Source: Lachnospiraceae bacterium
GTDB lineage: Bacteria; Bacillota; Clostridia; Lachnospirales; Lachnospiraceae
Assembly (NCBI GenBank): GCA_024699355.1
Contig: JAILPR010000204.1
Span: forward strand, 1-33,027
Length of the DNA: 33,027 nucleotides
Direction: 5' to 3'
Both the position numbers and the translations under genes were made by a program. Below, one piece after another: positions 4,347 to 13,214 of this stretch (positions within the stretch are counted from its first letter, which is position 1; each line of letters begins with the position of its first letter). The notes beneath the pieces were generated by a model. The model searched no databases, was not told the origin of the DNA, and saw only the letters and a program-made list of their open reading frames with translations.

Positions 4347-4380
4347 AAAAAAACGTTGCGCACCGTTTGGTACGCAACGC
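4347..4380 (-). terminator. Terminator of the FapA/HD-GYP gene cluster
   Basis: On the minus strand CGTTGCGTACC / GGTGCGCAACG forms an 11-bp stem with one G-T wobble and a short loop, followed by TTTTTTTAG. It lies 13 bases after the stop of the HD-GYP gene. Confidence 0.9.
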
Positions 4381-4392
4381 TTAGAATTGATT

Positions 4393-5466
4393 TTAGATCA
4401 GTTCTGCCGTCAGACGCTCGAAATCTTCTCTGACCAGTCTGAAGCAATTGATCAGCTTTGGATTAAAGACGCCGCACTCGCCGTTTAAGATCATGCGATA
4501 GGCTTCATCCGACGTATAAGCGCCTTTGTAGACACGTTCGCTGACCAGCGCATCATAGACATCCGCAATGGATACGACCTGCGCCGACAACGGGATCTGA
4601 TCGCCGACCAGACCGTCCGGATAGCCTTTTCCGTCATAACGCTCATGATGACTGCGCGCGATCTCTAAGGAATAGCGCATATAGTCATTGCTGTCTTCTT
4701 CGCTTAAGACATGCTCGATGATCTCTGCGCCGTGCAACGTATGTGATTGCATCACCTGACGCTCTTCATCGGTCAGACGCGCCGGCTTTAAGAGGATCTT
4801 GTCCGGGATCGCGATCTTTCCGATATCATGCATTGCAGAAGCATAACTGATATTATCGATGTCCTCATCGGTCAGGCCAAACTCCGGATAACACATCGCC
4901 ACGGTTTTGATCAGCACCTTGGTAAGCTCCCGCACACGCAGGATGTGATTGCTCGATTCGAGATTACGGAACTCCACAACCGTACCCAGGGTGTCGATGA
5001 TGTGATAGTTCATCTCCTTGATCCTGCGGTTCTGCTCCTGGATCTTTTTGGTCTGCTGATCGACCAGATCTTCGAGCTGGTTCTTATGCGCCCACAGTTC
5101 GATCAGATTCCGGATCCTCTTGCGGATGACAAACGGATCATACGGCTTATCCACAACATCGCTTGCCCCCAGGGAAAATGCTTTTTCCTTGGTCTCCATC
5201 GCCGTATCTCCGGTGATCATGACAACCGGCATCTCTTCCATATAGTCATACCGGATCATATACTCCATCACCCCGAAGCCGTCGACCTTCGGCATGATGA
5301 TGTCCAGCAGCACTGCCGAGATCTCATCCCGGTGTTCCTCCAGCTGGTGGATCGCCTCTTCGCCATCGACTGCCTCAAGGACCTCATATTCATCCTGAAA
5401 CAGTCTGCACAGCAGCTTTCTGTTCGTATCCTGATCTTCTACAATTAATATCGTACCGTTTTTCAT
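4393..5466 (-). CDS. Response regulator with HD-GYP c-di-GMP phosphodiesterase domain
   Basis: Start set at the ATG at 5466 (357 residues); the ORF-track extension overlaps the upstream FapA gene and is not a protein. Residues 1-125 are a receiver domain: ILIVEDQD acidic pocket, phospho-acceptor Asp in LLDIIMP (residue 55), Thr in MITGDTA, Lys in DKPYD. A short helical linker (KNQLEDLVDQQTKKIQEQN) follows, then an HD-GYP domain with MHDIGK, the His in MQSHTLHG, HHERYDGKGYP and IADVYDALVSERVYK, so the metal ligands and GYP motif are all present. HD-GYP enzymes hydrolyse cyclic di-GMP. No partner histidine kinase is in the window. It is the last gene of the cluster, 32 bases after FapA. Confidence 0.93.
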   Translation of the reverse strand: MKNGTILIVEDQDTNRKLLCRLFQDEYEVLEAVDGEEAIHQLEEHRDEISAVLLDIIMPKVDGFGVMEYMIRYDYMEEMPVVMITGDTAMETKEKAFSLGASDVVDKPYDPFVIRKRIRNLIELWAHKNQLEDLVDQQTKKIQEQNRRIKEMNYHIIDTLGTVVEFRNLESSNHILRVRELTKVLIKTVAMCYPEFGLTDEDIDNISYASAMHDIGKIAIPDKILLKPARLTDEERQVMQSHTLHGAEIIEHVLSEEDSNDYMRYSLEIARSHHERYDGKGYPDGLVGDQIPLSAQVVSIADVYDALVSERVYKGAYTSDEAYRMILNGECGVFNPKLINCFRLVREDFERLTAELI

Positions 5467-5498
5467 AAGTTTACCTCGCTTGTCTGCATCTATTCCGC

Positions 5499-6842
5499 TT
5501 AATTCTGGTAGATGGCGATGATATTTTCGCTCCTTCTGAAGGTGACCATGGAGCGTTGTGTTGTCATCAGTGTCTTCGCAGAGTCGATCCGTACGCTGAC
5601 TCTGGGGAATACATCCTTCTTCACTTTGACATACGCATTTTTGGATTGTTCGAGCAGTTCTTCGAGCGCTTCGATCTGCTTGGAGCAGCTGAGACGATCG
5701 TTCACCTTCATGCACATGGCCGTCACGATCTTCTCATGATTGTCTCCCGGCACACGGAGGTTTCTCTGGAACACATCGATCTCAGCATTTAACTTATCCA
5801 TATCCCGCTTTAACAAGCTAAGTTTTCTGGTGTATGCATCATCGATCCCGACCTTGATCCTGGTCAGGATCTCCGATTCATTCCCAATGGAATTGGCTTC
5901 GATAAAACTTAGTGATTCCGTTGTCCCCCCCAGGATAACGCTTAGATGTCCGGAGACATCCACTCCCTTCAAACCAACGATGTTAGAATTGAGCAGGTAA
6001 TTACAGGTGACCTTCCCCTCTGCATGTACGTTGGCATTTTCTACAAACTTGGCAAAGAAATCGCCCACCGAAGTGATCGAACACTCGCCGTTTCCGACGA
6101 CACCGCCACGGATGATCACATCACCTTTGGCTGAGATCTCCGCAGATTCCACGATACCGCCGATGGTCACAGAGCCGCCGGAGATGATACGCATACCGGA
6201 GCGTACCGCGCCTCTGACTTCGACATCGCCGTCGAATTCAATATTTCCTACCTTATGATCCAAGTCGCCGGATACGGTAAAGAGATTCGATATCCGGATC
6301 TGTCCGTTGGCAAATTCGATCTTGCCGTCGGCGTCCGCATAATATTCCATCAGATCTTCCGAAATGTGGAATCCTTTTCCTCGAAGCGCAGGTTTTTCCT
6401 TGCCCTTCTTCGGCATCACGATACCGCCCTTGACGGTGTACCCCATTGCTCCGCCGGTCGACTTATGATACTTCGCAATCAGCTGATCCTTCATGACTCG
6501 TTCGAACAGGTCGATATTCAGATAATCGACACTGCCGTCTTCGAGCACCTTCGGAACCGTAGGAAGCTTGGTACGGAAAAACATTTCAAACGAACCGTCT
6601 TCTCCGTCGACTGCCGGCTTTCCTTTTGCGACCGTGACCATCTGATCGTAAATCCCGTGATCGATGATATCCTGCAACACATCATTCAAGATGCCATGCT
6701 TGACGCCTGCCGCAAACAATAGATCCTGCAGTTCCTCCATCGTATAGTTCGTCCCGTTGGGCTTTCGACGGAGGTACATCATAGCTTCCATATTGTCGTC
6801 GCTGATGCTTATAAGGTTGTTGTAAGCATCAGTAAATTGCAT
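5499..6842 (-). CDS. FapA family protein (DUF342)
   Basis: A 447-residue protein with the arrangement of FapA/DUF342 proteins: an N-terminal alpha/beta region ending near STGGAMGYTVKGGIVMP, then a right-handed beta-helix-like domain of short repeats (VTIGGIVES, VIIRGGVVGNG, FFAKFVENANVHAEG, VEVRGAVRSG), then a C-terminal coiled coil (about 330-400) and a basic tail. The characterised homologue in Vibrio vulnificus takes part in polar flagellar assembly and binds a phosphotransferase component; in Clostridia the role is unknown. The protein has no signal peptide, so it is cytoplasmic. Its ATG is 2 bases after the stop of the repeat protein, which implies translational coupling. The next gene downstream is a c-di-GMP phosphodiesterase, pointing to surface or motility control by inference. 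Confidence 0.85.
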   Translation of the reverse strand: MQFTDAYNNLISISDDNMEAMMYLRRKPNGTNYTMEELQDLLFAAGVKHGILNDVLQDIIDHGIYDQMVTVAKGKPAVDGEDGSFEMFFRTKLPTVPKVLEDGSVDYLNIDLFERVMKDQLIAKYHKSTGGAMGYTVKGGIVMPKKGKEKPALRGKGFHISEDLMEYYADADGKIEFANGQIRISNLFTVSGDLDHKVGNIEFDGDVEVRGAVRSGMRIISGGSVTIGGIVESAEISAKGDVIIRGGVVGNGECSITSVGDFFAKFVENANVHAEGKVTCNYLLNSNIVGLKGVDVSGHLSVILGGTTESLSFIEANSIGNESEILTRIKVGIDDAYTRKLSLLKRDMDKLNAEIDVFQRNLRVPGDNHEKIVTAMCMKVNDRLSCSKQIEALEELLEQSKNAYVKVKKDVFPRVSVRIDSAKTLMTTQRSMVTFRRSENIIAIYQN

Positions 6843-6844
6843 GT

Positions 6845-8032
6845 TTAGTTGTCCCCGTCTTTCTCAGTGCGTTCTTTGATCAGTCGAAGTCTGATCTCAC
6901 GCATCTGCTCTGCCGAAAGTTCCTTCTTTGCATAAGCATCGGTATCAACCCCGGCTTCGATCCCGAGGATGATCTCCTGTGACTGTTCCTCTGTAAAATC
7001 TTCAATCTCACGCTGCGATAATTCCTGCTGTTGCTCCTGGATCAACTGACGCATCAGCGCCAGTGTATTACCGACCTTCGCGATCTCATCAATGTTCAGA
7101 TCATCTTCCATGGCCATACGGATCTCCTGCATCTCACGCCAGCTGAAGTACTCGCTGGCATATCTGGAGGCATCGAGATGTTCCTCGAGGCCGAGGCGGA
7201 TCTCACGCATCTGGAACCAGTTATAATCCGGTGTCGCATACATCTGATAATCGATCTTACTCTCCATGCCCAGACGGATCTGCTTCATCTGCTGACCGTA
7301 AAGTTCATGTAAGAAATACGGTTCCATCGGCAGCTGATGCTCGATCGCATAGCCGATCTCGTGCAGCTGATCGGCATCAAACCCTTCTGCCGCATACTTC
7401 GAGATATCCACATTCCTGACGAAATATTCAAAGAGTTCTTCCAGTACATGCCCGTTATAACCCATCTTTGCATAGGACAGGATATCAACGTTATTCTCCA
7501 TGCCTTTCCGGATCAGACGCATGACCAGCGAGTCAAACTCAACCAGCGCATATTCTCGTACATTCAGGTTCTTGCGGATACCGCAGAGGATCTCCTCCAT
7601 CTGGTACCAGTCCAATGCCGGATTTAAATATGCACTGACATCAAGGCCTTCCTTTAAGCCCTCACGGATGATCTGCATCTGCGGTGCCAAAAATTCCGGC
7701 TTTAAGTACACGGAGATATCCACATGCTCCTCAAAGCCCAGACGGATCTCCCGGATCTGCATCCAGTCAAAGCGCTCCGCATATGTACGCATATCCAGTC
7801 CCATCATACTTCCCAGGCGGATTTCTTCCATCTCAAACCATGAATAGCCCGGATTCATATACATATGAATGTCCAGACCATCCTCCAGCCCCAGATTGAT
7901 CTGCCGAAGTTGCTCTGCATCATAGTGCGCGTCTTTCAGCTCTTTTTCCTTCAGCCCGTGATCCAGACACTTCTGGAACTCCTCCTGATAGGTTCTGTCC
8001 TGATATTGTTTTAAAGCGTGTCTACTTTCCAT
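6845..8032 (-). CDS. Protein made of about thirteen 25-residue tandem repeats
   Basis: Start placed at the ATG at 8032 (395 residues), 2 bases after the stop of the upstream gene; the track start at 8062 is a TTG inside that gene. After a charged helical leader of about 36 residues nearly the whole protein is a tandem array of 25-26-residue units. The consensus is roughly QMREIRLGLEEHLDVSxYA followed by xPxFxW, with clear units such as FQMREIRLGLEEHLDASRY and IREIRLGFEEHVDISVY, and more decayed ones in the centre. The pattern predicts a helix-turn-helix solenoid. No signal peptide, membrane segment or catalytic motif is seen, so a cytoplasmic scaffold or binding platform is the best guess. 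Similar repeats occur in other Lachnospiraceae proteins to my recollection, but I cannot name an established function. Confidence 0.82.
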   Translation of the reverse strand: MESRHALKQYQDRTYQEEFQKCLDHGLKEKELKDAHYDAEQLRQINLGLEDGLDIHMYMNPGYSWFEMEEIRLGSMMGLDMRTYAERFDWMQIREIRLGFEEHVDISVYLKPEFLAPQMQIIREGLKEGLDVSAYLNPALDWYQMEEILCGIRKNLNVREYALVEFDSLVMRLIRKGMENNVDILSYAKMGYNGHVLEELFEYFVRNVDISKYAAEGFDADQLHEIGYAIEHQLPMEPYFLHELYGQQMKQIRLGMESKIDYQMYATPDYNWFQMREIRLGLEEHLDASRYASEYFSWREMQEIRMAMEDDLNIDEIAKVGNTLALMRQLIQEQQQELSQREIEDFTEEQSQEIILGIEAGVDTDAYAKKELSAEQMREIRLRLIKERTEKDGDN

Positions 8033-8034
8033 CT

Positions 8035-8994
8035 TTACATCCCATACATCACTACGATACAAACCAGCCCCAGAATGATGCCAAACAGATTACTCCACAT
8101 CCTTAACGGATGCTCGTGATAATGCGGTTCGTTATACATTGGTACATGTTCTGCATACGGAATCTGCATCGCATCGATCTGTGCCAGAAATTCCGCCGCA
8201 CGTTTGCTCATATGCTCGCGGATCCTGAAACTGACCGCCTGCGCAAACCAGTGCTTGGCCACATTGAAATTGGCGAGTGCAAATTCCACGCGACCCATAA
8301 AATAACAGTATCTTAAAAATTCATACTTACTCTCCAGGCTGCCCGAACGATAGACCTTACTCAGATATTCTTTGGCCTGGATATTTTTGCCCTGGAACAT
8401 CATCTCCCGAAACTCCAGCTCCTGCTGTAGCATCGTCGCGTTTCGAAGACTTCTCCTCGAGACGTTTCTGCCGCGCAGCCAGCGGTTTCGAAAGTATTCC
8501 AGACAAAGTTCAAAATTGTGAAAGTCCTCCAGCTCCGCATAGAACCTGCACCAGTAGTAATCATAGACAAGTTCTGTCGCCGGTGCGAAATTCGGCTTTT
8601 CATCACGGATCTCCATCAGCCTGCGATAAGCTTCATCAAAATCACCGCGGATCAGAAACGCATCGATGCTGTTGACTTTTTGGCGGCAGATCGCCGCCCT
8701 GCCGATATTAAAATGTTCCAGGAACTCCATACACGATTGGTATGCATCGAAATCACACAATTCCAGCGCCAATCGCTGTAAATGTAAATTGCGAAGTACC
8801 GTTAAGACAAAATAAGAATAGTAATACCACAATCCGAGAAGGATCGTGGCAAAAATCCGGTAGAGGGAAACTCCCGGCGCAAAAAAAGACGCACCGATCA
8901 AGAGTGCCGGTACCAAAAGTGGTAGCACCACCATTCGAAACGTATGCAATACCTTGACCGATAATGTCTCTCTGCCTACCGCTGTCTGCCTCAT
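8035..8994 (-). CDS. Membrane protein with TPR-like cytoplasmic domain
   Basis: Start set at the ATG at 8994 (319 residues), which follows GAGGGGCAGT; the track start is 24 bases further upstream without a good site. Two hydrophobic helices occupy roughly residues 20-60 (MVVLPLLVPALLIGASFF and ATILLGLWYYYSYFVLTVL), and a third closes the protein (LFGIILGLVCIVVMYGM). Between them is a helical region with repeated paired helices (FDAYQSCMEFLEHFNIG, GDFDEAYRRLMEIRDEKPNF, FNVAKHWFAQAVSFRIREH) typical of tetratricopeptide-like repeats. The soluble part probably faces the cytoplasm and binds protein. Family not recognised. It is tightly coupled to the repeat protein gene, with only TAAAGATG between them. 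Confidence 0.75.
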   Translation of the reverse strand: MRQTAVGRETLSVKVLHTFRMVVLPLLVPALLIGASFFAPGVSLYRIFATILLGLWYYYSYFVLTVLRNLHLQRLALELCDFDAYQSCMEFLEHFNIGRAAICRQKVNSIDAFLIRGDFDEAYRRLMEIRDEKPNFAPATELVYDYYWCRFYAELEDFHNFELCLEYFRNRWLRGRNVSRRSLRNATMLQQELEFREMMFQGKNIQAKEYLSKVYRSGSLESKYEFLRYCYFMGRVEFALANFNVAKHWFAQAVSFRIREHMSKRAAEFLAQIDAMQIPYAEHVPMYNEPHYHEHPLRMWSNLFGIILGLVCIVVMYGM

Positions 8995-9032
8995 ACTGCC
9001 CCTCATAAGACATGTCAATCAGGATTAGTCGC

Positions 9033-9299
9033 CTAACCCTCTACAATCAGGTATCTGCCATCCCCTACGTCAAATACCTCTGCCTGCTCGAGGATCTCCT
9101 CTTCGCCGGCGCCTTCAGTATCAATCCCCTCTTCCTCGAAATACCGCAGAACCTCTGCGGGAGAATCTACGACAACTGCCATACAATCCTCCAGAAAGGC
9201 TTCTGCTTCCTCTGCACTTTCAGCAATGTTTTCCGAGAACAGTTGCCGTTGGTTGTCAAGAAAACACTGCAATACAGCTTCATCATATTCATCCGTCAT
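9033..9299 (-). CDS. Small acidic conserved protein
   Basis: An 88-residue, strongly acidic protein (about 30 percent Asp/Glu, few Lys/Arg) with no cysteine cluster, signal or membrane segment. It resembles a small conserved Lachnospiraceae family with the features QRQLFSENIAESAEEAEAFL, LEDCMAVVVDSPAEVLRYF and a closing VGDGRYLIVEG. Such proteins are sometimes annotated glyoxalase, but the size and sequence give no support for that. The start ATG follows AGGAAAGGAAGTAGCGCAAT. It lies 38 bases upstream of the membrane/TPR gene on the same strand and so is probably the first gene of the cluster that ends at 4393, though it could be a separate unit. Confidence 0.75.
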   Translation of the reverse strand: MTDEYDEAVLQCFLDNQRQLFSENIAESAEEAEAFLEDCMAVVVDSPAEVLRYFEEEGIDTEGAGEEEILEQAEVFDVGDGRYLIVEG

Positions 9300-9405: not shown

Positions 9406-11538
9406 TCACATTTGCGGCGCCTGTTCCGGGAGAAATACCCGGCTTTGCGTCAACTCCGGAGATGCATCCTTTGCCGCTTTGTCGGATAATTCCACAAAAT
9501 AGCGCTGTGCGGTAAAACTCTCTGCGCCGCGTCTGTTGACTTTTTCGTAGGTTCCCTTCGGCTGCAGGATGTGCGCCTTGGTATTGTCTTTCAGCTGACT
9601 TTCGAGGATGTGAATGGCTGCACTCCTGATCTCCGGATCATCCAGCGGGAACATCAATTCCACGCGGCGATCGAGATTACGCGGCATCCAGTCCGCGCTG
9701 GCACAGTATACCTCTGCCTGTCCGTCGTTTGCGAAATAAAAGATTCTGGCGTGCTCCAGGAAATTGCCGACGATCGAGCGCACCGAAATGTGCTCGCTGA
9801 CGCCCGGAATCCCGACCTTCAGACAGCAAATGCCACGCACGATCAGATCGATCTTAACGCCGCTTACGGAGGCTTCATAAAGAGCCTCAATGATGTCCGG
9901 ATCGCACAGGGAATTCATTTTCGCAATGATCTGTGCCGGCAGGCCCTGTTTTGCATGCTCGCTTTCTCTGGAGATCAGCTGCAAAAAGCGCTTTTTCAGC
10001 CACAATGGTGCCATTGCCAGGCAATTCCAGTTTCGCGGCTCCGAATAGCCGGACAACATATTAAACACGGCCGTTGCATCCTCGCCGATCTTCTCGGCGC
10101 AGGTCATCAGTCCCACATCCGAATACAGTTTTGCCGTCGAATCATTGTAATTACCGGTGCCCAAATGCACATATCTGCGGATGCCGTCCTCTTCACGGCG
10201 CACCACCAGCGTGATCTTGCAATGGGTCTTTAAGCCCACCAGACCGTAGATGACATGGCAACCCGCCTGCTCCAAACGTCTGGCCCAGATGATATTATGC
10301 TCTTCGTCGAATCTGGCCTTTAATTCCACCAGTACCGTGACCTGCTTGCCGTTCTCCGCCGCCTGCTCCAGCGCTGCGATGATCGGCGAATTACCACTGA
10401 CGCGGTACAGTGTCTGTTTGATTGCCAGTACTTCCGGATCCACGGCTGCCTGTCTGATAAAATTCACCACCGGCAGAAAGCTCTGGTACGGATGATGTAA
10501 AAAGACATCGCCTCTGCGGATGACTGTAAAGACATCCTCTCCATCGCTGAATTCCGGAACCGGTGCCGGCTCATGCGACGGCTCTTTGAGTGCCTCAAAT
10601 CCACCAAGGCCGTATACCTTCATCAAAACCGTCAGATCCAACGGTCCTTTGATCCGGTAGATCTCCTCTTCGCCCAGGTGCAGCTCCCTCTGCAGTACTT
10701 CGAGCAGTTCCTTGTCCATCTTGTCTTCGATCTCGAGACGGATGGCTTCGCCACGCTGCCGTTTCTTTAACTGCTTCTCGATCTCTTTTAAGAGATCTTC
10801 CGCCTCATCTTCATCAATGGAAAAGTCCGCATTACGCATGATCCGAAACGGGCTGACCGCCACGATATCATAGTTCAAAAACAGTTTGTCGATATTACGC
10901 TCAATGATCTCCTCCAAGAAGATGATGGTCTTTTGGTCTTCCTCTTCCGATGGGATCTCGATCACGCGGGATAACACCCCCGGCACCTGTACCGTTGCAA
11001 ATTCCAGCGCATCGCCGCCGCTTTTCCTGCGCACCAGCGCACCGAGGTTCAGCGTCTTGTTGCGGATCAGCGGGAACGGTCTTGAGGAATCCACAGCCAT
11101 CGGCGTCAGTACCGGATAGACGTTCTCCATAAAGAAACGATCCACAAACATCCCCTGTGCCTCGCTTAAATCCTCATGCCGGGCCACGATGCGAAGCCCG
11201 TGCTTTTTCAGTTCCGAAAGGAACTGCTTATTGTAAACATTGTACTGTTCCCGCACCAGCTCGTGCGTCACTTTGGTCACCGCACTCAGCTGCTCTTTGG
11301 CAGTCATGCCCGCGATGTCCTTCTTGGTATAGCCGGCATTGATCATGTCCTTTAAGGAGGCGACACGCACCATAAAGAACTCATCCAGATTCGATGCCGT
11401 GATGCTCAAAAATTTCAGCCGCTCAAACAACGGCACCTTCGCATCTTTGGCTTCGCCCAGAATGCGCTCATCAAACATTAACCAGCTTAACTCTCTGTTG
11501 GTATAGTATTCAGGATTTCGAAAATTTACTGTTGCCAT
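9406..11538 (-). CDS. ppk1: Polyphosphate kinase 1
   Basis: A 710-residue protein with the full Ppk1 layout: N-terminal helical domain starting YYTNRELSWLMFDERIL and SNLDEFFMVRVASL, a head domain, and two phospholipase-D-like C-terminal domains. Motifs include FLHHPYQSF, AIKQTLYRVSG, LKTHCKI with the histidine that becomes phosphorylated, and YVHLGTGNYN. Ppk1 reversibly transfers the gamma phosphate of ATP to inorganic polyphosphate, usually at the inner membrane face. The ATG follows GAGGTGGGAC and lies 8 bases after the stop of ppx, so the two opposing polyphosphate enzymes are co-translated. It is the last gene of the pheA-DUF815-ppx-ppk run. Downstream only a weak ATGT/ACAT hairpin followed by a T-rich run is seen as terminator. 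Confidence 0.96.
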   Translation of the reverse strand: MATVNFRNPEYYTNRELSWLMFDERILGEAKDAKVPLFERLKFLSITASNLDEFFMVRVASLKDMINAGYTKKDIAGMTAKEQLSAVTKVTHELVREQYNVYNKQFLSELKKHGLRIVARHEDLSEAQGMFVDRFFMENVYPVLTPMAVDSSRPFPLIRNKTLNLGALVRRKSGGDALEFATVQVPGVLSRVIEIPSEEEDQKTIIFLEEIIERNIDKLFLNYDIVAVSPFRIMRNADFSIDEDEAEDLLKEIEKQLKKRQRGEAIRLEIEDKMDKELLEVLQRELHLGEEEIYRIKGPLDLTVLMKVYGLGGFEALKEPSHEPAPVPEFSDGEDVFTVIRRGDVFLHHPYQSFLPVVNFIRQAAVDPEVLAIKQTLYRVSGNSPIIAALEQAAENGKQVTVLVELKARFDEEHNIIWARRLEQAGCHVIYGLVGLKTHCKITLVVRREEDGIRRYVHLGTGNYNDSTAKLYSDVGLMTCAEKIGEDATAVFNMLSGYSEPRNWNCLAMAPLWLKKRFLQLISRESEHAKQGLPAQIIAKMNSLCDPDIIEALYEASVSGVKIDLIVRGICCLKVGIPGVSEHISVRSIVGNFLEHARIFYFANDGQAEVYCASADWMPRNLDRRVELMFPLDDPEIRSAAIHILESQLKDNTKAHILQPKGTYEKVNRRGAESFTAQRYFVELSDKAAKDASPELTQSRVFLPEQAPQM

Positions 11539-11546
11539 GTCCCACC

Positions 11547-13088
11547 TCAGAATATACGTTTCTGCCGGATCACCGGGCGGATCGCAAAGATTTCCTCAAA
11601 GAAATCGGCCCGTGCCCGAAAGAGTCCTTTTTCCAGCGTGATATCCTCTCCGGTCTCCACAATGACCTCCAGGCGATCTTCCTTCAACTGCGTCTTGACG
11701 TTTTTGAATTTCTGCTTATGACTACGGTCCAACCCGTTGGCGATGCGCAGGATCGCGGTCAGTTTGGCGATCGTCAGTTCCGTCTCACGATCCAGGCCGC
11801 TGCTGCTCTCATCCAGGGCATCATAGTCAAACGGCATATGATTGTACTTCACCACATTGGCGATGATCTCACGCTCTCTGTGCGAGAGGCCGATGATCTC
11901 GGTCGACATCACGATGTTGTAGGAGCACTCTGCCAGATTGATCATGGAAATATATTTGCCGCAGTCGTGCAGGATCGCGGAAAGCTGCAAAAGGAGCCGC
12001 TCTCGCCTGCCGAGACCGTGGACCTTCTTCATGCTGTCAAATACCGTCAGCGTGATCTGTTCGAGAGTCTCGCCGCGCTTCCTGCTGCCCATATAGCGGC
12101 GTCTGATATTCATCGCGCTCGATAAGATATCCGCTTCAAAATCATGTTCGCTGCGGATCAGTTTGTTTTTATCCGCATATTCATAGACGATACCGTCGCA
12201 CAGTGTAACACCCGGTGCCCAGATCATCTGCGTATCCATCATTGCCACGACGTGCCGCAGCAGACAGCAGCTGATCAGCAAAAGTCTCGCATTTTCTTCC
12301 GGGATGTCAAGCTGCTCTGCCACCTGATTGGTGGACTGTGCCATCATGTTTCCGGTAAAGCGTTCAAATACTTTGGTCCGCACATAACCGGCCTTTAGGC
12401 CCGGTTCCGTCCGCTGCTTGCAAATGGCGGAAAAATAGTCGTCCACCACGATCAGGTTGCGGATCTTACGTTCTTTTAAATAGAGTTTGCGAAAGACATC
12501 GAGCTGGCTCATGACGATCTCTTCAATGATCTGCTCCATCCGGTAGGAGCCTGCATCGAGTCTGGAAAGTGCTTCGTTTAAGCGAAGAACGCCGAGGCGC
12601 ATGTTTTGCGTGGCCGTCAGTTTGCCGTCCTCGAATAACGAGAGCTGCACACCGTCACCGCCGATGTCCAGGATCGCGCCATCCTGCGTCAGTTCATGGA
12701 ACTCCTCGGTTTTGGATGCCACAGATTTATAATCCAGGAAACGCTGCTCGGAGTTACTGAGTACATCGATATGGATCCCCGTACGCTGCTCGATCTGGTC
12801 GATCAGGATCTGCGTCCCCCGCATCTCGCGGATCGCACTGGTGCCGTAGGCTCGATAGTCATCCACGCGATAGGTCTTCATCGTCTGCGCAAAACTCTTG
12901 AGGATCTTACACAGTTCCTCAACCTTTTGCACGGAGAGCTTGCCTGTCTCGTAGGTCTCGGACCCAAGGTCCAGGCGATGCCGCAGATCATCGATCTGCT
13001 TCATGCCTTTTTTGTTGGAGATCTCAAAGATTTTCATCTCGATCTCGAAGGATCCCACGTCGATTGCCGCAAATGTTTTACCAGCCAT
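11547..13088 (-). CDS. ppx: Ppx/GppA-type exopolyphosphatase
   Basis: Start moved to the ATG at 13088 (513 residues), preceded by GAGGGAAAG and followed by the expected AAIDVGSFEIEMKIFE phosphate-1 motif of the actin-like fold. The second half of the nucleotide/phosphate pocket is visible as GAILDIGGDGVQLSLF. The C-terminal half is an HD-like helical domain (ILHDCGKYISM, VKYNHMPFD). The usual first motif has DxGS(N/T)S; here it is DVGSFEIEM, with Phe-Glu where small polar residues are common. Ppx enzymes remove terminal phosphate from polyphosphate; GppA members also act on pppGpp. With ppk1 immediately downstream the polyphosphate role is more likely. Confidence 0.88.
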   Translation of the reverse strand: MAGKTFAAIDVGSFEIEMKIFEISNKKGMKQIDDLRHRLDLGSETYETGKLSVQKVEELCKILKSFAQTMKTYRVDDYRAYGTSAIREMRGTQILIDQIEQRTGIHIDVLSNSEQRFLDYKSVASKTEEFHELTQDGAILDIGGDGVQLSLFEDGKLTATQNMRLGVLRLNEALSRLDAGSYRMEQIIEEIVMSQLDVFRKLYLKERKIRNLIVVDDYFSAICKQRTEPGLKAGYVRTKVFERFTGNMMAQSTNQVAEQLDIPEENARLLLISCCLLRHVVAMMDTQMIWAPGVTLCDGIVYEYADKNKLIRSEHDFEADILSSAMNIRRRYMGSRKRGETLEQITLTVFDSMKKVHGLGRRERLLLQLSAILHDCGKYISMINLAECSYNIVMSTEIIGLSHREREIIANVVKYNHMPFDYDALDESSSGLDRETELTIAKLTAILRIANGLDRSHKQKFKNVKTQLKEDRLEVIVETGEDITLEKGLFRARADFFEEIFAIRPVIRQKRIF

Positions 13089-13099
13089 CTTTCCCTCAT

Positions 13100-13214
13100 T
13101 TCCCGCTGCGGTGCACTGCCGCGCCGTCGCCATTTTGCTGCCGCGCCACCGGCCATTTTGCTGCCGCGCGCTGCGCGGCTGTCGGTTATGCTCCGGCGCT
13201 GCGCGCGCCGGCTC
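13100..13214. repeat. GC-rich repetitive spacer between DUF815 gene and ppx
   Basis: About 115 bases of very GC-rich DNA. GCCATTTTGCTGCCGCGC occurs twice with a 23-base period (13129-13146 and 13152-13169). Two palindromic elements follow: CCGCGCGCTGCGCGG and CCGGCGCTGCGCGCGCCGG. No U tract follows on the minus strand, so these are not standard terminators; they may reduce read-through or shape the message. Confidence 0.7.

Follow-up and report, generated by a model that had tools for sequence, protein, structure and literature searches.

The DNA analysed here, referred to as the window, is a stretch of 33,027 nucleotides from a genome of the Lachnospiraceae (GCA_024699355.1, contig JAILPR010000204.1), a family with flagellated members in the gut and rumen; the host genus was sampled with three genomes. 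Five tightly packed open reading frames (ORFs), all on the minus strand, were found in one part of it. In the order of transcription they encode a small acidic protein of 88 amino acids (9033-9299), a membrane protein of approximately 319 amino acids (8035-8994), a repeat protein of 395 amino acids (6845-8032), a FapA-type protein of 447 amino acids (5499-6842) and a response regulator of 357 amino acids with an HD-GYP output domain (4393-5466). The genes are separated by 38, 2, 2 and 32 bases and the cluster ends at an intrinsic terminator on the same strand (4351-4382), with a 14-pair stem, a four-base loop and a T-run. A first-pass annotation of the window had described the five same-strand genes, these gaps and a strong terminator, and all were verified. 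No histidine kinase gene or histidine phosphotransfer (HPt) gene is present within the cluster. The repeat, membrane and small proteins matched no Pfam family above its cut-off and NCBIfam added none for these three. The repeat protein, FapA and the HD-GYP protein are likely to constitute a module for motility or surface signalling that has not been described before.

Repeats were located by position-specific scanning, which started from the window protein and was then extended over its relatives. Twelve units were found in the window protein, at intervals of 26, 25 and then eight times 26 residues, and the core tandem array covers residues 37-320 (7073-7924, minus strand). Across all scanned proteins, window and relatives together, 329 of approximately 366 intervals are 26 residues long, so the period of 25 residues proposed initially has to be replaced by 26. 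The consensus is close to YDWxQMREIRLGLEEGLDVSxYAKP. An AlphaFold2 model calculated from 51 sequences (the window and fetched loci) is all helical, with a mean predicted local distance difference test (pLDDT) score of 96.3, and predicts an alpha-solenoid, i.e. a regular series of helices of about 12 residues with short turns between them. Comparison of this solenoid with the PDB gave no match by sequence and none by fold at E<=0.001, where only weak similarities to designed-repeat and TAL-type structures were seen; among viral structure models just two short uncharacterised phage proteins were matched. The cut-offs of known alpha-solenoid families in Pfam were not reached (Decapeptide, 17.9 bits vs a cut-off of 45).

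Viral contigs from IMG/VR carry this 26-residue repeat too, at 22 loci (L129-L150; contigs of 9.6-274 kb). Several repeat genes often stand in a row there, and the genes adjoining the repeats have no FapA match. Arrays of repeat genes without FapA were also seen in a metagenome-assembled genome of Erysipelotrichaceae (L181) and on a contig titled Candidatus Woesearchaeota archaeon (L187), a title that may stem from binning or from a mobile element.

Gene linkage was analysed in two sets of loci. The family sample consisted of 397 genomes drawn evenly from Lachnospiraceae, with loci chosen by the repeat alone (one locus of the third host-genus genome was added). The second collection (genome_contigs, named public genomes) provided the best 80 of 259 loci by similarity to the window; these being the most similar loci, percentages in this set lean towards the module. 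The repeat was present in 51 of the 397 family genomes. Among the 80 loci the solenoid is fused to FapA in 67, encoded by an adjacent gene in 10 and without FapA in three, one of which runs off a contig end. The family sample, which is independent of these loci, contained 43 linked loci, comprising 33 single-ORF fusions and 10 adjacent pairs. The co-occurrence of the repeat protein with FapA and HD-GYP in Lachnospiraceae, which the first-pass annotation had put forward for checking, was thereby confirmed for FapA, with linkage at 77 of 80 loci and at these 43.

Of the 72 second-collection loci with enough flanking sequence, 65 have a same-strand HD-GYP gene no more than 2.5 kb downstream. For the family sample, with the same limit of distance and strand, the count is 33 of 41 loci (32 downstream, one upstream). 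The gap to the neighbouring HD-GYP gene is mostly a few bases. This near-constant adjacency contrasts with just 3-14 HD_5 matches per genome, as counted in five genomes. Six of the seven second-collection loci lacking HD-GYP belong to Butyrivibrio; at the other one, L226, the sequence stops at a contig end. The apparent absence of HD-GYP at L154, L174, L230 and L053 was rejected as an artefact, the gene being present and masked by antisense ORFs.

Fused and split states change several times on the FapA tree described below, indicating that the linkage outlived repeated fusion or fission. In a class sample of 341 genomes such pairs, fused or adjacent, were detected within the family only; the matches outside it were stand-alone repeat ORFs without FapA in the short stretch fetched. 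Judged by this conservation, chance is excluded as an explanation for the linkage of repeat protein, FapA and HD-GYP. Fusion in most relatives demonstrates, at the level of sequence, that the solenoid and FapA, adjacent genes here, act as one protein. Retention of gene fusion and gene order across dozens of genera strongly supports the view that repeat protein, FapA and HD-GYP form one unit.

The window FapA gave Pfam matches to FapA_N (PF20250, 8e-40, 136.5 bits, cut-off 27) and FapA (PF03961, 5e-53, 180.9 bits, cut-off 31). FapA was detected over the cut-off in 187 of 397 family genomes. In most examples listed, the gene for a form of approximately 540 amino acids shares contig and strand with flhA, at a distance of about 10 kb. 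Alignment of these flagellar forms with the window FapA does not start before residue 72-106; thus the solenoid-linked FapA, unlike the flagellar FapA of Lachnospiraceae, is without an N-terminal extension of some 72 residues. A tree of 107 FapA proteins was built by a quick method, with supports from the Shimodaira-Hasegawa-like approximate likelihood ratio test (SH-aLRT) and no bootstrap. All 20 flagellar FapAs fell on one side of a branch with a support of 100, and all 49 solenoid-linked FapAs inside one lineage of 55 with a support of 96; the window FapA groups with its genus mates within the latter. The flhA gene of this genome is on contig C152 and the window is contig C280. On these alignments and this tree, the window FapA is a paralogue and not an ortholog of the flagellar-operon FapA. 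As the two are distinct, annotation as 'flagellar assembly protein A' can mislead here.

The fused protein of Lachnospiraceae bacterium COE1 (L196) was modelled with a pLDDT of 88.6. The solenoid is followed by a linker of low confidence (262-280) and FapA_N, after which come a region rich in beta structure, a hairpin of long helices and, at the C terminus, a further beta part. Comparison of this model with the PDB by fold gave no significant match. The idea that solenoid-free second FapA copies (L089-L127) share the HD-GYP context was rejected: most are in another conserved neighbourhood, often between a gene for approximately 880 amino acids and genes for 440/465. In genome G011, a FapA (L124:5302-7092) carries a receiver-like domain fused C-terminally and adjoins a 944-amino-acid protein with a receiver-type match.

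The response regulator matched Response_reg (3e-22, 79 bits) and HD_5 (5e-30), with scores that, like those of the two FapA domains, clear the Pfam cut-offs by a wide margin. Its phospho-acceptor Asp is residue 55, in a DIIMP motif of the receiver (REC) domain, and the HD-GYP domain contains HDIGK and HHERYDGKGYP. Its HD and HHER...GYP motifs align with those of the solved enzymes 4mcw and 4r8z, as do the His/Asp positions around them and the metal-ligand positions; the two enzymes are the best PDB matches and 5z7c is the third. The window protein is thus apparently an intact phosphodiesterase, predicted to degrade cyclic di-GMP (c-di-GMP). Catalytic motifs are retained in 56 of 64 HD-GYP neighbours of the module relatives. 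Pfam matches and motif alignment therefore agree with the earlier assignment of a FapA-type gene and a response regulator with an intact HD-GYP domain.

An HPt-type gene is located directly upstream of the module in 17 of 75 loci; the Pfam family Hpt was matched over the cut-off in one sampled module neighbour and below the threshold in another. In the genome studied here, an HPt homologous to the module-linked one follows a REC-EAL-GGDEF protein (L239:3560-7338, G000 contig C294). A similar REC-EAL-GGDEF and HPt pair is present in G236 (L240). At two Butyrivibrio loci (L182, L185) and one family-sample locus (L038) the HD-GYP position is occupied by a near-identical protein of 106 amino acids; for the copy at L038, the match to PilZ is slightly above the cut-off.

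FlhA is encoded by 211 of the 397 family genomes: by all 40 genomes with the linked pair vs 171 of the 357 others (Fisher p=1.5e-12, uncorrected for shared ancestry). Two genomes with the repeat only have no FlhA, and the repeat there is not linked to FapA. The motility process suggested by the first-pass annotation is thus favoured indirectly, by the occurrence of the linked pair in FlhA-encoding genomes only; the FapA of this pair is a paralogue and not the flagellar FapA.

From these data we propose that solenoid-FapA acts as a scaffold by which a c-di-GMP phosphodiesterase under phosphorelay control is positioned or sensed, and that this probably serves motility or a surface transition; we give this reading, which is based on sequence comparison, a probability of about 0.5. 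The FapA beta-solenoid and coiled coil would form an elongated, possibly self-assembling platform, with the alpha-solenoid as a protein-docking arm, and the phosphodiesterase would be recruited to this platform or controlled by it. An HPt-type phosphorelay would phosphorylate the receiver and thereby turn on local hydrolysis of c-di-GMP, favouring motility over attachment. In lineages whose HD-GYP protein has no receiver, the scaffold itself may exert control. A bolder version, which we consider rather unlikely, is that solenoid-FapA is a new self-assembling polar or surface scaffold that, by capturing the phosphorelay-controlled enzyme, confines c-di-GMP degradation to a single site within the cell, i.e. 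a counterpart in Clostridia of polar organisers of the HubP/FimV type. Several observations weigh against the proposal of a scaffold for the phosphodiesterase. In Butyrivibrio and at several split-gene loci solenoid-FapA has no adjoining HD-GYP, the receiver is missing from about one third of the neighbouring HD-GYP proteins, and six FapAs of the solenoid-linked lineage have no detected solenoid. The association with FlhA could partly reflect shared ancestry. Finally, some homologous HD-GYP enzymes, including that of the third PDB match, act on 3'3'-cyclic GMP-AMP (3'3'-cGAMP) and not on c-di-GMP.

The persistence of solenoid-FapA without HD-GYP could be explained if this protein were the output under regulation, such as a factor for the envelope, cell shape or flagellar number, while an untethered HD-GYP sets a c-di-GMP level sensed directly or via PilZ. 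The PilZ-type gene downstream in Butyrivibrio loci without an HD-GYP neighbour fits this explanation, which is possible but in our view doubtful, since elsewhere HD-GYP is a near-invariant neighbour at very short distances. It is quite improbable that the HD-GYP protein has a different cyclic dinucleotide, for example 3'3'-cGAMP, as its substrate and that the module is no c-di-GMP device: the three best PDB matches do include a 3'3'-cGAMP phosphodiesterase of V. cholerae (5z7c), but the two best are 4r8z, a c-di-GMP phosphodiesterase, and 4mcw, and the genome has 29 GGDEF matches. We can hardly credit an accidental operon in which a common promoter is all that joins FapA, repeat protein and HD-GYP. 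Unrelated genes can share operons, but solenoid-FapA fusion and HD-GYP adjacency recur across many genera, which largely refutes this explanation for the solenoid and FapA.

The two upstream genes bear on the remaining alternative, a dedicated unit of all five genes in which the membrane protein would be an anchor and the small acidic protein a regulator. The gaps and the single terminator are in line with it, as is the order small-membrane-repeat-FapA retained in G236. The membrane protein (ATG start after AGGGG; hydrophobic segments near both ends by hydropathy) is present in three of three genomes of the host genus, and it was not found at module loci outside the genus in the family sample and the second collection, which contradicts the five-gene unit there already. 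Of 40 module genomes, 29 have homologues of the small protein, mostly at a great distance or on a different contig; it adjoins the module in the host genus only and is 5-6 kb away in G176 and G305. A dedicated five-gene unit is accordingly improbable. With the membrane protein restricted to the genus and the small protein mostly encoded elsewhere, only repeat protein, FapA and HD-GYP make up the conserved core, and the other two genes are its companions in the host genus. Of the single functional unit assumed at first, this core stands, and the membrane and small genes, which conserved neighbourhoods split off, do not belong to it. Of 'membrane/TPR-like', the membrane part is supported by the hydrophobic segments; a tetratricopeptide repeat (TPR) protein was rejected (TPR_8, E=0.28, 11.9 bits vs a cut-off of 25.7). 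Farther upstream (9406-13133) there are, judging by eye, polyphosphate kinase-like and Ppx/GppA-like genes.

FapA and REC-HD-GYP proteins are known kinds; the fusion of a solenoid with FapA and its HD-GYP partner is undescribed in the literature searched. No published description of the repeat motif, or of DUF342/FapA together with HD-GYP, was found in a search that left out most subscription papers, in agreement with the initial remark that no named system with such a gene set was known to its author. With these results an unannotated repeat domain acquires FapA as its partner and cyclic-dinucleotide turnover as its pathway, in a major family of the gut and rumen. They also provide a concrete case in which spatial control of c-di-GMP can be tested in Clostridia.

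The closest comparison for FapA is with the Vibrio vulnificus and V. cholerae proteins (DUF342), which are of the same family as the protein described here, with its FapA_N and FapA beta-solenoid domains. According to PMC6877527, Vibrio FapA has a role in flagella and polar localisation (citing Park 2016 and 2019), interacts with dephosphorylated EIIAGlc and, in work cited there, is recruited by HubP. Unlike it, the FapA of the module carries or adjoins an alpha-solenoid and is encoded outside the flagellar operon, which has another FapA copy. The predicted beta-rich solenoid and a weak MinC_C match in the window FapA (E=0.001) recall the C-terminal domain of MinC, although the match is under the Pfam cut-off. 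Bactofilin-type beta-helices are, we presume, another likeness of this beta-rich solenoid. The HD-GYP protein resembles PA4781 (4r8z) in its order of REC and HD-GYP and in its catalytic motifs, and PA4781 requires receiver phosphorylation for activity (PMC3774798). It differs in being a near-constant gene neighbour of solenoid-FapA and in that about one third of its relatives at module loci have no receiver. In Shewanella the landmark protein HubP activates a c-di-GMP phosphodiesterase, PdeB, at the flagellated pole (PMC9061725). The likeness to this pair is one of concept, without any claim of a relation in sequence (no search was made for HubP), and in the module the scaffold would be based on FapA.

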